A stretch of DNA of 50,392 nt, from contig CALGZC010000060.1 in NCBI GenBank assembly GCA_937934745.1, positions 1 to 50,392 of the forward strand, given 5' to 3'. Position 1 is the first letter of the stretch, and each line of letters begins with the position of its first letter. Source of the DNA: an uncultured Blastocatellia bacterium (GTDB taxonomy: Bacteria; Acidobacteriota; Blastocatellia; Chloracidobacteriales; Chloracidobacteriaceae). A program made the position numbers and the translations under genes. Below the pieces are notes generated by a model. It was not told the DNA's origin. It saw nothing but the letters and a program-made list of their open reading frames with translations, and made no database searches. Below are positions 37,063 through 43,180 of this stretch, one piece after another.

Positions 37063-39864
37063 TTAGGCACCGTGGCAGTTTTTGTATTTCTTACCCGATC
37101 CACAGGGACAGGGGGCATTGCGCCCGATTTTGGGCGTGCGGCGGACAATGGTCGTCCCACCTTCTCCAGCGCGTCCTGCTCCAGCATTCGCCGCCGTGTA
37201 AACCTGTCCGGGCATTTGGCGTGGGGTCGGTGTTGGTGTTCTGAGCTTGGCAGGTATGGGTCGTGCCGTTGCCACCTGGGGCAGGGAAGGCGGCAGGTGT
37301 GCTTCGTCGGCGACCCCGAATGCCTCGTGTGTCTCCTCTGTCTCCTCTGTTTCGAGGTCGCCGTCCACGAAATCAAATGTGGCCGTCTCCGCCACTTCGA
37401 CACGCATGTTGAGCAAGAGCCGGACGCACTCTTCATCCATCCGGTCGATCATGTCCTCAAACATTCGGGTGGACTCTTTTTTGTACTCAATCAGCGGGTC
37501 CTTCTGCCCGTACCCACGCAGGCCAACGCCCTCTTTGAGGTGGTCAAGAGCGGCTAAGTGCTTTTTCCAGTGCGCATCCACAATGTTAAGCATCACATGG
37601 CGCTCAAGCTGGCGTAAGTTTTCTGCCCCGACCTTGGCTTCGCGCGCTTTGTACCGTGTGAGAATGGTTTGCCAAACTCTCTCGCGGATTTCATCGCGGC
37701 TTAGATGTTCAAAGTCGAGTTTTTCCGCTTCGCAGTCGAAGGCGAAAATGTCGAGCAGCACGACACGCAATCCATCCGTGTCCCATTCTTCTGGTCGCCC
37801 ATGCAGGTAACGGTGGATGACGTCTGTGAGAAGGTCTTCTGCCACGTGAATAAACTGCCGTCCGCCCTCGGCGCCTTCCATCAACTCACGCCGCAAGTTG
37901 TAGATGGTTTCGCGCTGGAGATTCATGACGTCATCGTACTCCAGCAAATGCTTGCGGATTGAAAAGTTGTGGGCTTCCACCGACTTCTGGGCAGCCTCGA
38001 CGCGCCGCGACACCATGCGGCTTTCGATGGCAACACCTTCCTCCATACCCAGGGTGAGCATGATGCTCTTCAGGCGGTCGCCGCCGAAGATTCGCATCAG
38101 GTCATCCTCAAGTGAGAGGTAGAAGCGGGATGAGCCGGGATCGCCTTGCCGTCCGGCGCGACCGCGAAGTTGGTTGTCAATGCGCCGGGACTCATGACGT
38201 TCGCTGCCGATGATATGCAGCCCACCGAGCGCAACGACTTCCTCGTGCTCACGGTCGGTTTGCGCTTTCATTTGCTCAAAGAGGGCCTGGCGTTCTTCGG
38301 GTGGCACCTCGGCCGGATTACGTCCTTGCCGGCGCAGTTCGGCATCGGTGAGAAACTCTGGATTGCCACCGAGCAGAATGTCAGTCCCGCGCCCGGCCAT
38401 ATTGGTTGCAATCGTCACAGCGCCTTTCCGTCCGGCTTGGGCCACGATTTCGGCTTCGCGTTCGTGGTACTTGGCATTGAGAACATTGTGGGGAATCCCA
38501 AGGGCAGACAATTTGCGCGAGACGAGTTCGGAGTTGGCAACCGACGCTGTGCCGACCAAGATCGGTTGTCCGGTCTGATGGCGTTCTTTGACCTCTTCCA
38601 CAATGGCATTCCACTTTTCTTCCGCCGTACGGTAGATGAGGTCGGGATAGTCTTCCCGGATCATGGGTCGGTGCGTTGGAATGACCGTCACTTCCAGGTT
38701 GTAGATCTTGGCGAATTCGGCGGCTTCAGTTTCCGCCGTTCCGGTCATTCCGGCCAACTTCTCATACATGCGGAAGTAGTTTTGAAGTGTCACCGTCGCC
38801 AGCGTCTGGGTCTCAGCTTCGATTTTGACCCCTTCCTTCGCTTCTACAGCCTGGTGCAACCCATCTGACCAGCGGCGGCCATCCATCGGGCGGCCGGTGT
38901 GTTCATCAACAATGATGACCTGCCCATCGCGTACCATGTATTCCTTGTCGCGGTGGTAGAGCGTATGGGCCTTGAGTGCTTGATTGACGCAGTGAAGTAA
39001 CTCGAAATGCTCCGGATCGTAGAGGTTGTCCACACCGAGCAACTGCTCGACCCGGGTAATTCCGCTTTCGGTTAGCGCCGCCGTGTGGCTTTTCTCATCC
39101 ACCAGATAATCGGTCGTGGGGTCGAGTTTCGGAATGACATCGTTGGCGAGGTAGTACTTCTCGCTGGATTCGTCAGACGGCCCGGCGATGATGAGTGGTG
39201 TCCGGGCTTCGTCAATCAGAATGGAATCTACTTCGTCGACAATCGCATAGAAGTGCCCGCGCTGGACACAGGACTTGACCGAGTACTTCATGTTGTCGCG
39301 CAAGTAGTCGAAGCCGAACTCGTTGTTCATGCCGTACGTGATGTCGCAGTGGTAGGCTTCCCGCCGCTCATCGTCGTACATATGATTCTGGATGACGCCG
39401 ACGGAGAGTCCCAAGAAGCGGTAAATTTTGCCCATCCATTCTGCATCACGTTTGGCAAGGTAATCGTTCACGGTGACGACATGTACACCGCGTCCCAGCA
39501 GGGCATTCAGATAGACCGGCAGGGTGGCAACCAAGGTTTTACCTTCCCCGGTTCGCATCTCGGCGATTCGGCCGTGATGCAGGGCAATCCCCCCGATGAG
39601 CTGGACATCGAAGTGACGCATGCCGGTGGTCCGGCGCGAAGCTTCGCGGACGGTGGCAAACGCATCCGGCAACAGATCGTCCAGCGATTCACCCCGGTCG
39701 AGTCGTTCCTTAAAACGTGCTGTTTGAGCCTGTAGCTCCGCATCCGAGAGCGCCTGCAACTTGGCTTCGCGGTCATTAATCGCCGTTACGAGTGGGCGAA
39801 TCCGCTTGAGGTAGCGGTCGTTGGCGCTACCGAAAACTTTGGCAAGAATTTTGTCAATCAGCAT
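37063..39864 (-). CDS. secA: Preprotein translocase ATPase SecA
   Basis: A 933-residue motor that pushes unfolded preproteins through SecYEG using ATP. Walker [13 protein letters not shown] lies near residue 105, the DEVD box near 215 ([17 protein letters not shown]), the NMAGRGTDI motif near 510, and the C-terminal zinc site [14 protein letters not shown] is at the very end, after a proline/threonine-rich linker. The start [21 protein letters not shown] matches the family, though no Shine-Dalgarno sequence is evident before it. SecA is 30 residues longer than in E. coli, mostly in the linker. Confidence 0.98.
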
Positions 39865-40131: not shown

Positions 40132-41577
40132 CTACGGATTGCCCGGGTGGACTTGTGCGACATGACCGTGATGCACCTTGCGGTTGATGAGTGCGTCCAG
40201 GTAATCGGTCAGCGCTTCGATTTCATCCGGCGTCCCGACCAGCGGCGGCATGTAGCTTCGATATGGCGAGTCGGGCGCGTTCTCGTGAAGCGTTTTGAGG
40301 AATGCCGCAATGGATTGCCGGTCGCGGCCCTGCAGCAGGCGGGCGATGGGACGGTAGCCATCCACGGTGTGGCAAGCAAGGCACTGTCCGCGAAACATCA
40401 GCTCGCCGCGCGCGAGGTCGGCGGCGACAGCGGGTTCAACCGTGTCGCCGAAGGCGACGCGCCGCAGCGAGACCGGCGGCGCGGCGGCCTTCAGCCAGAC
40501 TGAGTTGGCCAAATAGCCTTCGCGGTTGAATTTCTCCACTTCCTGCTTACGGATGCCGTTGGAGTACATGTGCTCGCCAACGACAAACGGCTTGCGCAGC
40601 ATTTCCCGCGAGTGTTCCGCCGATGCCGTGGCGGCAAAGGCTAAGAACAGCACGCACAGCGCGCGCCCCAGGTTGAAATGCCGAGCGTTGCGCCAGGCCG
40701 AGAAATAGACAAACGCCAAAATCGTCGCCGAGGTCATGACAACCACTGTCGCGGCGCGCGTGACCTGCGTAAACGTTCCCTGCCCGATGGTCGAAATGCC
40801 CAGGTTGAGCAGGGCGCGCTGCGACTCCGGCACGCTGGCCAGATACCAGACGAAGCAAATCGGCACGAGGATGAACGATGGCACAAGCCACTTGGCCGAC
40901 CAGCGCACCAGCTCATCCTTGAGCTGCGGTTCTGCCAGTGGGTCAAGGCGGCTGGCGGTAATCAAGGCGTAAACGCCTGCCATCGAGATACAGACCAGCG
41001 TCCGCAGCACGAGGCTGGGAAAGTAGGTTGGGTTGAAAAACGCCTGCCAGAAGTAGGCAGTTTCCTGACCCGTGCCAGCCGCGCTGAGCCAGCTTGCGCC
41101 CGGCGTGAGCATGAAGGTCAGAATGCCGTTGATGATGACCAGGCTCATCCACGCGCAGAAGGCGTAAATCCATCCGACGATAAGGTGGATGCGGCGCGGG
41201 AGCGTGTCCCAGCCGTAGTAATAGACCGCCGCCGCCGTTAGCTCGACGATGAAAAACACCCATTCAATCGCCCACCCGAACACAAAGTTGTGAATCAGGG
41301 TGCTGGTGGATTCCGGATGCGCCAGACCGATGGCGAACCAGATACCGACGCCCGACATCGCGCCAAAGACGCCGGTCAGAATGATGAAGAAGCGCGCATG
41401 ATCGCGGATGGCGCGCAGCCAATCTTCGCGCCCTTCCCGGATCGCCTTCGCTTCCGCCATCGGTAGGTAAAAGCCGCCGCCGACAGCGAAGTGCGAAATC
41501 ATGACGTGAAAAATCGCGATCAACCCGATGATCCAGCCACTGCCGATCAGCGGGACATCCCAAAACGGATAGTTCAT
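40132..41577 (-). CDS. CydA-like membrane protein fused to a C-terminal cytochrome c domain
   Basis: A 481-residue protein. Residues 10-330 are a polytopic domain like the cytochrome bd oxidase subunit I: AIFHVMISHF with His24 at the place of the conserved CydA His19, Glu112 and the YGWDTL stretch like CydA GWDRL. But the CydA His186 position carries Arg192 (LVLRTLVC), no equivalent of Met393 is seen, and the GRQPW quinol-loop motif is replaced by REMLRKPF. The C-terminus is a cytochrome c with CLACH (C399-H403) and Met443 in YMPPL. An oxidase function is doubtful; electron transfer through the c domain is likely. It lies 18 bp after cytochrome b. Confidence 0.8.
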   Translation of the reverse strand: MNYPFWDVPLIGSGWIIGLIAIFHVMISHFAVGGGFYLPMAEAKAIREGREDWLRAIRDHARFFIILTGVFGAMSGVGIWFAIGLAHPESTSTLIHNFVFGWAIEWVFFIVELTAAAVYYYGWDTLPRRIHLIVGWIYAFCAWMSLVIINGILTFMLTPGASWLSAAGTGQETAYFWQAFFNPTYFPSLVLRTLVCISMAGVYALITASRLDPLAEPQLKDELVRWSAKWLVPSFILVPICFVWYLASVPESQRALLNLGISTIGQGTFTQVTRAATVVVMTSATILAFVYFSAWRNARHFNLGRALCVLFLAFAATASAEHSREMLRKPFVVGEHMYSNGIRKQEVEKFNREGYLANSVWLKAAAPPVSLRRVAFGDTVEPAVAADLARGELMFRGQCLACHTVDGYRPIARLLQGRDRQSIAAFLKTLHENAPDSPYRSYMPPLVGTPDEIEALTDYLDALINRKVHHGHVAQVHPGNP

Positions 41578-41595: not shown

Positions 41596-42717
41596 CTACT
41601 TGAGGTCCAGGTAGCCCCAAATACTGAACACGATCATCCCCAGGAGGGCGAAATAGCCAAAGTAAGTCGCAATCTGCGCGCGCCGTCCGCCGGCCGAGCG
41701 CGTGTCGTAGAGCGGAATCAACGCCCAGACGACAATCGCCAGCGTAAAGAGCGAGATGCCCAGGGCCTCGCCCGCCGCGCCCGGAAACCACCGCCCGAAG
41801 ACCTTGAGCACCTGAAACTGGCTCATGAAGTACCATTCGGGATGGATGCCAACCGGTGCAGGCGCCAGCGGATCCGCCTGCGGCCCTAACTGCCACGGGT
41901 ACAGAGACGCCAAAATCGAGAGGACGTTGAGGGCAATGAGCCACATCCCCAGATCGAGCGAGAAGAAATCCGGGAAAAAGGGGATGCTGCGGCGCTCGCT
42001 TTCGGGCTTCGCTTCCTCACTGGGCGGCAGCGCGTTGCCGTGCTTTTGCACCAGCCACAGGTGGAAGGCGAGAATTGGGATGTAAATCAGCGGCAGAATC
42101 ACGACGTGCAGCGCAAAGAAGCGCTGGATGGTGGTTTCGGTAACTTCCGGCCCCCCACGCACGATGTCGGTCATCAGCGTGCCGACCAAGGGTAACGCCG
42201 CCGGAATTTCTAATCCGACCTTCGTGGCAAAATAGGCCAGGTCGTCCATCGGCAGTAGGTAGCCGCTGAAGCCGAACAGCAGCGTCAGCGCCAGCAGCGC
42301 CATGCCGCTCCACCAGCCGAACTCGCGCGGCTTGCGGTAGGCTTTCATGAAGTACACCGAAAACATGTGGACGAAGACGGCCAGCACCATCAGATTCGCC
42401 GACCACGAGTGCGCCGAGCGAATGAGCCACCCAAAGCGGATGTCGTAAGTAATCTCCCGGACAGACTCGTATGCTTCCGCGCCGGGCCGGTAATACACGA
42501 GCAGCAAAACGCCGCTGAAGACCTGCACGAAGAAGAAAAACAGTGAAAGGCCGCCCCAGTAGTACCAGAACGAGTATTGGTGGTCGGGAACCGTTTTCTT
42601 GCGTGCCAGCGCCAGAAGCTCTTCTAATCCAAGGCGTTCGTCCACCCAGGTGTAAACCGCTGCGGTCAGTGAGCGAGGACGCCGGGCGTCAGGCTTTGGA
42701 GACCAGGACACGTCCAT
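41596..42717 (-). CDS. Cytochrome b of a Rieske/b complex, b6f spacing, single chain
   Basis: A 373-residue membrane cytochrome b joining the b6 part (1-220) and a subunit IV part (230-373) in one chain. Heme ligands are His103 and His117 (13 residues between) and His204 and His219 (14 between); 13/14 is the b6f and Gram-positive QcrB pattern, whereas mitochondrial types have 13/13. The quinol-oxidation motif is PEWY at 293-296. The b6f cysteine that anchors the extra heme corresponds to Tyr53 here (WYYWGG), so that heme linkage is absent. It overlaps the Rieske gene by 29 bp and starts behind GAGGTG. Confidence 0.92.
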   Translation of the reverse strand: MDVSWSPKPDARRPRSLTAAVYTWVDERLGLEELLALARKKTVPDHQYSFWYYWGGLSLFFFFVQVFSGVLLLVYYRPGAEAYESVREITYDIRFGWLIRSAHSWSANLMVLAVFVHMFSVYFMKAYRKPREFGWWSGMALLALTLLFGFSGYLLPMDDLAYFATKVGLEIPAALPLVGTLMTDIVRGGPEVTETTIQRFFALHVVILPLIYIPILAFHLWLVQKHGNALPPSEEAKPESERRSIPFFPDFFSLDLGMWLIALNVLSILASLYPWQLGPQADPLAPAPVGIHPEWYFMSQFQVLKVFGRWFPGAAGEALGISLFTLAIVVWALIPLYDTRSAGGRRAQIATYFGYFALLGMIVFSIWGYLDLK

Positions 42718-43180
42718 CTTGCACCTCTACATAGTAGCGGGTTAGCGGCTTGGGGGGCGGTCCGGCGACATTCGCGCCGGTTTTCGGGTCGTAAACCCCG
42801 CCGTGACAGGCACAGTAAATGCGCGACTGTTCCGGCTCGTAGTTCACCGTGCAGGCCAGGTGCGTACACACCGCACCGAACGCCACCCAGCTCCCATCCG
42901 TGTGGTGGATGAGCATGGCGGGCGCTGTGCCGAACTTAAACATCAGGGCCGAGCCGGCAGGAAGCTGGTCGGCCCCATCGAGCACTGCCTGTGTGACCGT
43001 GCCTGTCGCAGCCGCCTTGCGGGCCGGGGTGGCGAGGTATTGATAGACCGGATAGCCAATCAATCCGGCATAGCAAGCCCCAAGTGCGCCGACGCCAAGG
43101 GCAATGAAGGTGCGGCGCGTCGTATCGGTTGGGGTAGATGCTTGTTCGGCTAGAGGCGAGGTTGCAGGAGCGTTAGGCAT
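42689..43180 (-). CDS. Rieske iron-sulfur protein, Tat-exported
   Basis: A 163-residue Rieske subunit that takes electrons from quinol and passes them to a cytochrome c. The 2Fe-2S site is complete: CTHLAC at 105-110 and CACHGG at 123-128. The N-terminus has RRTFIALG (22-29), a twin-arginine signal that stays as membrane anchor. The ATG overlaps the stop of the preceding gene (ATGCCTAA), and 29 bp of its end overlap cytochrome b, so translation is tightly coupled. A TTG at 43189 is less likely. Confidence 0.93.
   Translation of the reverse strand: MPNAPATSPLAEQASTPTDTTRRTFIALGVGALGACYAGLIGYPVYQYLATPARKAAATGTVTQAVLDGADQLPAGSALMFKFGTAPAMLIHHTDGSWVAFGAVCTHLACTVNYEPEQSRIYCACHGGVYDPKTGANVAGPPPKPLTRYYVEVQDGRVLVSKA

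Follow-up and report, generated by a model that had tools for sequence, protein, structure and literature searches.

The window, by which we mean the whole stretch of 50,392 nucleotides that was analyzed, carries on its minus strand a compact operon of four genes, which code in this order for a CydA-fold protein that we call P0002, a Rieske protein, a cytochrome b and, as the last gene, a CydA-like subunit ending in a cytochrome c domain (CydA-c). We consider it somewhat probable that the four products form one membrane complex leading from menaquinol to oxygen, with a Rieske/cytochrome b module joined to a bd-type oxygen reductase. The evidence comes from residues that CydA-c has lost or kept, from the predicted folds of CydA-c and P0002, and from the gene neighborhoods in which the two are found in other bacteria.

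The gene for CydA-c occupies positions 40132..41577 (-), the interval given in the original prediction, and its product of 481 aa consists of a CydA-fold domain of eight helices (residues ~11-342) followed by a C-terminal cytochrome c domain (~382-468). That this is a CydA-like subunit, as had been proposed, is confirmed by a match to Pfam Cyt_bd_oxida_I (PF01654), which scores 75.1 bits over residues 15-206 where the cut-off is 26.2, and by the predicted fold. The AlphaFold2 model, with a mean pLDDT of 87.9, superposes with its residues 11-342 on residues 6-461 of E. coli CydA (6rx4_A; Z 30.7, rmsd 3.2, 321 residues), and ten bd-oxidase entries head the structure matches at Z 29.0-31.2, with the next entry at Z 17.9. 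The domain picture of the prediction was right for the CydA part and overlooked the cytochrome c domain. The latter matches the Pfam cytochrome c domain at residues 386-460 below threshold (19.6 bits against a cut-off of 27), and residues 383-468 superpose on cytochrome c6 (1ls9; rmsd 2.9, 77 residues) at Z 7.1, a value that by itself does not prove kinship. It holds the heme c motif CLACH (40369..40383, minus strand; residues 399-403), which is the sole CxxCH in frames of at least 80 aa between positions 38000 and 48000. Eight membrane passes can be read from the helices of the model, one fewer than in CydA, so that the heme c domain and the N-terminus would share one side of the membrane; this would be the periplasmic side, provided that CydA-c is oriented in the same way as CydA. 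Chance or an annotation artefact can be ruled out for this gene, as the protein shares 42-74% identity along its length with 80 aligned rows.

Conservation was followed over the best 80 of 323 matches to CydA-c, which comprise 58 near loci (L002-L059) and 22 distant ones (L060-L081; 40-45% identity). The resulting alignment has 81 rows (57 near and 24 distant), made up of the window protein and 80 rows from 78 loci, two of which have two copies; L053, with broken frames, and L059, which is cut, are outside the alignments and inside the count of 58. For comparison we used 31 quinol oxidases, namely E. coli CydA and the 30 best-scoring Acidobacteriota loci, a choice that is biased to canonical ones. 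The MAFFT alignment mis-placed the C-terminal part of the E. coli protein and was used for conservation and N-terminal matches only; whole-length HHalign also mis-aligned the E. coli C-terminus, and the matches to E445 and M393 were taken from the C-terminal stretch alone. Fifteen residues of CydA-c are invariant in 81/81 rows: H24, E105, E112, H131, R192, E321, R324, E325, R328, K329, P330 and the four of the heme c site, C399, C402, H403 and M443.

The original prediction held that H186 is replaced by Arg192, that the M393 site is not a methionine and that the quinol loop is missing, and that such a protein should not bind heme b558 or oxidize quinol as a bd oxidase does. The ligands of b558 are a His and a Met, and quinol is bound by a Lys and a Glu of the Q-loop (PMC8951039); among the quinol oxidases compared, both pairs, H186 with M393 and K252 with E257, are present in 31/31. 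In CydA-c, R192 (41002..41004, minus strand) stands at or adjoining the H186 position. When CydA of Geobacillus (5doq_A) is aligned by HMMER profile, R192 falls on H186, while the HMMER alignment to M. smegmatis bd-II (9r2g_A) and the HHalign alignment to E. coli CydA both put L191 on the His, with R192 adjacent. The claim was correct in that the site has no His, residue 191 never being His and residue 192 being Arg in every row. HHalign of the C-terminal stretch places M393 on A276 with a weak score, and this column has Met in 3 of the 57 near rows and in 0 of the 24 distant ones. M281, the alternative counterpart of M393 in the HMMER alignment, was rejected as the b558 methionine, since Met is unconserved there (26/57 near rows, 0/24 distant). 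No conserved Met stands at either position, as predicted. Conserved His and Met do occur elsewhere in CydA-c (H60 in 73/81 rows, H96 in 78/81, M156 in 79/81 and M337 in 78/81), all of them off the b558 positions in the alignments, and a search for another His and Met aligned at those positions returned none.

The stretch from H186 to E445 measures 186-259 residues in the 31 quinol oxidases, whereas the matching stretch has 121-135 in the 81 rows of CydA-c, so that the Q-loop is gone from this protein and the claim of a missing quinol loop holds. As to a CydB partner, no PF02322 match was found in the genome (the controls match in 11/14), nor does the genome contain any PF01654 match besides CydA-c. 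The features of a canonical quinol bd oxidase (qOR), which are the b558 ligands H186/M393, the Q-loop with K252/E257 and the CydB partner, are all lacking, and from the absent ligands and loop we can predict, in agreement with the earlier claim, that CydA-c would neither bind b558 nor oxidize quinol in the manner of bd oxidases.

The high-spin hemes of bd oxidases are held by a conserved His and Glu (PMC8951039), and the residues of the oxygen site are retained in CydA-c. The assignment of His24 to H19 and of Glu112 to E107 agrees with our alignments, both being invariant, and three more counterparts had been overlooked, E105 for E99, E325 for E445 and H131 for H126, each conserved in 81/81 rows. 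The statement that GRQPW is replaced holds in part: ExxRKP stands for ExxRQP, with a Lys for Q449 and with the Glu, Arg and Pro retained. The invariant E325, R328 and P330 (81/81 each) fall on E445, R448 and P450, respectively, in the alignments. E325 (40603..40605, minus strand), which is followed by R328, K329 and P330, would thereby correspond to the high-spin heme ligand E445 (E378 in Geobacillus). This match has weak C-terminal scores (6.7 bits in HMMER; HHalign probability 12.8%, E 0.0022) and is backed by the superposition of CydA-c, which reaches E. coli residue 461, past E445. In the quinol oxidases H19, E99, E107, E445, R448, Q449 and P450 are found in 31/31 and H126 in 29/31. By profile, fold and the residues for high-spin hemes and proton entry, CydA-c belongs to subunit I of the cytochrome bd superfamily.

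The original prediction concluded that the CydA fold had apparently been taken over for a different function, which we could not support, given that the counterparts of H19, E99, E107, H126, E445, R448 and P450 are invariant throughout the 81 rows. The invariant oxygen-site residues, the heme c domain and the adjoining Rieske and cytochrome b genes together make it likelier that the job is the same and the electron input another; most likely, as far as sequence can tell, CydA-c would reduce oxygen as bd oxidases do and receive its electrons from a different donor. We see only a slim chance that the complex reduces some other small molecule (NO or peroxide) or runs backwards like an alternative complex III. 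A role of this type has been considered for the bd-like proteins of Nitrospina that have no quinol site (PMC3578206), but the oxygen-site residues of CydA-c are those of oxidases.

The spacing between E105 and E112 is 7 in 81/81 rows, while that between E99 and E107 is 8 in 31/31 quinol oxidases; a spacing of 7 is also seen in Geobacillus (5doq_A) and in M. smegmatis bd-II (9r2g_A). In other bd oxidases the glutamate is shifted off heme d by an extra leucine of helix 3 (Leu101 in the E. coli enzyme). Geobacillus lacks this leucine; there the heme held by His and Glu is shut off from either side, and it is probably the other heme that oxygen meets (PMC8951039). From the spacing of 7 we infer a Geobacillus-like site for CydA-c, which suggests a layout where the H24/E105 heme would be closed on both sides and oxygen would be met at the E325 heme.

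P0002 (43173..44273, minus strand) has no Pfam match. Its AlphaFold2 model (mean pLDDT, 93.6) has nine long helices and superposes on CydA (7ose_A; Z 29.5, rmsd 3.8, 350 residues), and HHalign relates it to CydA-c itself (96.7%, E 3.5e-10), so that the second subunit is a relative of CydA, as in a CydAA' arrangement. Its H29, equivalent to H19 and located at the position of H24 in CydA-c, is conserved in 54/54 near rows and 22/22 distant ones. Counterparts of E99 and E107 are absent from the 76 rows of P0002, in which the only columns with Glu in at least half of the rows are 128 and 162, away from the E99 and E107 places. We also considered P0002 as a CydB, which is not favored: the window protein lacks a Pfam match and the CydA chain is the best one in every bd entry, with CydB chains also matching structurally, behind the CydA chain of the same entry. 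Across the 76 members, Pfam gives scattered weak matches, with at most 2 members per family.

The genes of the operon are tightly packed, with overlaps of 8 bases between P0002 and Rieske and of 29 bases between Rieske and cytochrome b, and with 18 bases separating cytochrome b from CydA-c. The Rieske protein (42689..43180, minus strand; 163 aa) contains the cluster motif CTH...CACH. The cytochrome b (41596..42717, minus strand; 373 aa) contains the His pairs 103/117 and 204/219, whose spacing we take to be of the b6 kind, and PEWY at residue 293. The Rieske motif, the His pairs and PEWY are what is expected of a Rieske/cytochrome b complex and are common to bc1 and b6f complexes; unlike these, the operon has no gene of its own for cytochrome c1 or f (as scanned for CxxCH in frames of at least 80 aa between 38000 and 48000), and the c heme sits on the CydA-fold protein. 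The genome has a second Rieske/cytochrome b pair (L120; G000:C46:485-2567), whose cytochrome b frame bears its own CxxCH at residue 416 of 484, whereas the window cytochrome b has none. This contrast points to the window cytochrome b as the partner of the heme c in CydA-c.

In the complex that we propose, cytochrome b and the Rieske protein would oxidize menaquinol, and the Rieske center would reduce the cytochrome c domain at the end of CydA-c, in the place otherwise taken by cytochrome c1 or f. From heme c the electrons would reach the two high-spin hemes directly, bypassing heme b558. These hemes would be held by H24/E105 and by E325, oxygen would be reduced there, and the protons needed for it would be fed past E112. 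P0002 would replace CydB as a CydA-type partner (CydA').

The order P0002, Rieske, cytochrome b, CydA-c is found in 54 of the 58 near loci among the best 80 of 323 matches, and the four loci without the complete order (L011, L014, L033 and L059) are each cut by a contig end. Record titles of the near loci name Acidobacteria, Verrucomicrobia, Planctomycetes, Armatimonadetes, Hydrogenedentota, Sumerlaeota and Omnitrophota, and habitats in the titles of the loci include groundwater, lakes, bog and fen. Of the 247 Acidobacteriota genomes, 98 give some match to CydA-c; many of these matches are weak (22-29% identity over the N-terminal part) and probably ordinary CydA. Eight further Acidobacteriota genomes (at least 50% identity, near full length) carry all four genes in order, one of them, G235, probably being the genome of L002; three of the eight, together with the window's own, are the sampled genomes of the window's genus, so that the operon is present in 4/4. 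Four other genomes (G082, G156, G223 and G127), with 50-60% identity over part of CydA-c only, are outside the gene-order count. At the locus of Chloracidobacterium sp. CP2_5A (L053:3048-7343) the operon lies in several broken frames, perhaps from assembly errors, and the protein is 91% identical to CydA-c over residues 6-374; the genome of the window is thus a near relative of Chloracidobacterium.

The pair of P0002 and CydA-c is the core of the system, as P0002 lies beside CydA-c in all 22 distant loci. Two genomes outside the set of Acidobacteriota genomes with all four genes (L130 and L131) have this pair alone. The adjoining bc module is apparently dispensable for its function: Rieske and cytochrome b are both missing from 20 of the 22 distant loci and, where at least 3 kb is available on both sides (13/22), from 11 of the 13. 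No common theme was seen among the neighbor genes of the distant loci (10 proteins from 4 loci). These counts speak against a bc-bd linkage and for another explanation, by which CydA-c and P0002 would be a bd-kind cytochrome c oxidase fed by soluble cytochrome c and the bc complex a separate one that is merely co-expressed; L064, a distant locus that has genes for cytochrome c and FixO no more than a few kb away, also fits it. We regard this explanation as unlikely, because the window operon encodes no other c-type heme that could accept electrons from the Rieske protein, the gene order does not vary among the 54 near loci that are complete, and in two Verrucomicrobia (L060:4302-5969 and L061:4270-5988) P0002 and the Rieske protein are fused into one protein adjoining CydA-c, with the Rieske part C-terminal. 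The constant order and the fusion both argue for the bc-bd linkage of our proposal. On the other side, these two Verrucomicrobia have a Rieske protein without cytochrome b, which was found neither in their loci nor in their genomes as assembled (0/2). The more far-reaching idea of a single built-in bc-bd chimera shared by several phyla, with Rieske/cytochrome b hard-wired through the fused heme c to a bd-type oxygen site, is a tentative one, to which we give a little less than even chances.

The tree took in 8 of the 31 quinol oxidases, which fall into a clade of their own. L062-L081 group together as well (100/100), and the fusion rows L060 and L061 pair up (100/100) and branch ambiguously among the operon rows. 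With long-branch warnings for E. coli CydA, L081 and L078, the tree resolves only the CydA-c family against the 8 quinol oxidases. Some loci depart from the usual arrangement. Tandem copies of CydA-c precede P0002 in one Ignavibacteriota and one Bacteroidota locus (L064:4647-7293 and L067:5378-7978), and L129:2111-4534 has a P0002-like frame of 808 codons, about twice the usual size, which may be a fusion or merely an open frame. The quinol oxidizer of L060 and L061 is left without explanation by the bc-linked route.

The genome of the window organism also contains one heme-copper oxidase match and, 6 kb away, an NrfD-family gene whose cluster resembles alternative complex III, a complex that a review ascribes to phototrophic Acidobacteria (PMC5972617). 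With this other oxidase and the second Rieske/cytochrome b pair, neither job depends on the window operon. A type I reaction-center homologue (L085; G000:C40:50248-50571) is found in an 880-residue frame (30.3 bits against a cut-off of 23.3). The window organism is probably phototrophic, judging from its genes, and Chloracidobacterium thermophilum is known to need oxygen and yet to be inhibited above ~1% of the ambient level (PMC5972617). CydA-c could then replace cytochrome c1 as a membrane-anchored carrier and hand electrons on to a soluble cytochrome c or to the type I reaction center, its CydA part being a non-reducing scaffold. The reaction-center homologue, the presence of the operon in every sampled genome of the genus and the loss of the b558 and quinol sites are in line with such a role, but the oxygen-site residues are invariant in 81/81 rows, and the operon occurs mostly in lineages that are not known to be phototrophic, so that we judge it quite improbable and retain the oxygen-reducing complex as our preferred reading.

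In canonical bd oxidases the electron donor is quinol, and complex III is bypassed. CydA-c resembles the canonical CydAB enzymes (E. coli bd-I, Geobacillus bd) in its fold and in having counterparts of H19, E99, E107, H126, E445, R448 and P450, and differs from them in being without b558 ligands, Q-loop and CydB, in having one helix fewer and in the added heme c. The OR-C family of the cytochrome bd superfamily, reportedly described by Murali, Gennis and Hemp in 2021, has a CydA core with high-spin heme ligands and without a quinol site, followed by a C-terminal cytochrome c domain. By this definition CydA-c matches in the CydA core without quinol site and in the C-terminal cytochrome c, and OR-C is its likely home; the operon may also be described in the same 2021 work. 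The family is named in PMC10839748, PMC13189123 and PMC11707229. In the literature searched, which included PMC9846854 and PMC10654088, we found no description of an operon of Rieske, cytochrome b and CydA-c.

Further parallels come from Nitrospina and Nitrospira. The bd-like protein of Nitrospina is without quinol-binding residues and has 14 predicted helices, with cytochromes c as separate genes (PMC3578206), and in N. moscoviensis bd-like and complex III genes share one region, for which a supercomplex has been proposed (PMC6606698). The CydAA' of the OR-N type is thought to use cytochrome c (PMC10839748), and CydAA' also occurs in Nitrospirales (PMC12342949). The OR-N and bd-like oxidases of Nitrospira and Nitrospina thus resemble our system in the absent quinol residues (Nitrospina), the proposed CydA-like pair and the nearby complex III genes (N. 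moscoviensis). Unlike in Nitrospina, the heme c is here part of the CydA chain itself, and in several phyla the four genes are packed into one operon. Acidobacteria are also known to have superoperons of bc1 with a caa3 oxidase (PMC8407424).

If our reading is correct, aerobic chains could also be built by fixing a bd-type oxygen site behind Rieske and cytochrome b, and with a Q-cycle placed ahead of the bd site, a bc-bd chimera would yield more conserved energy for each electron than a bd oxidase by itself. The two Verrucomicrobia with the fusion would then have a bd oxidase that is fed by Rieske and works with no cytochrome b, which has apparently been lost, and CydA-c would reveal what portion of CydA the oxygen chemistry by itself requires. 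For annotation, rules made for quinol oxidases would misname CydA-c, and for the genus of Chloracidobacterium thermophilum the operon adds a candidate for the consumption of oxygen.
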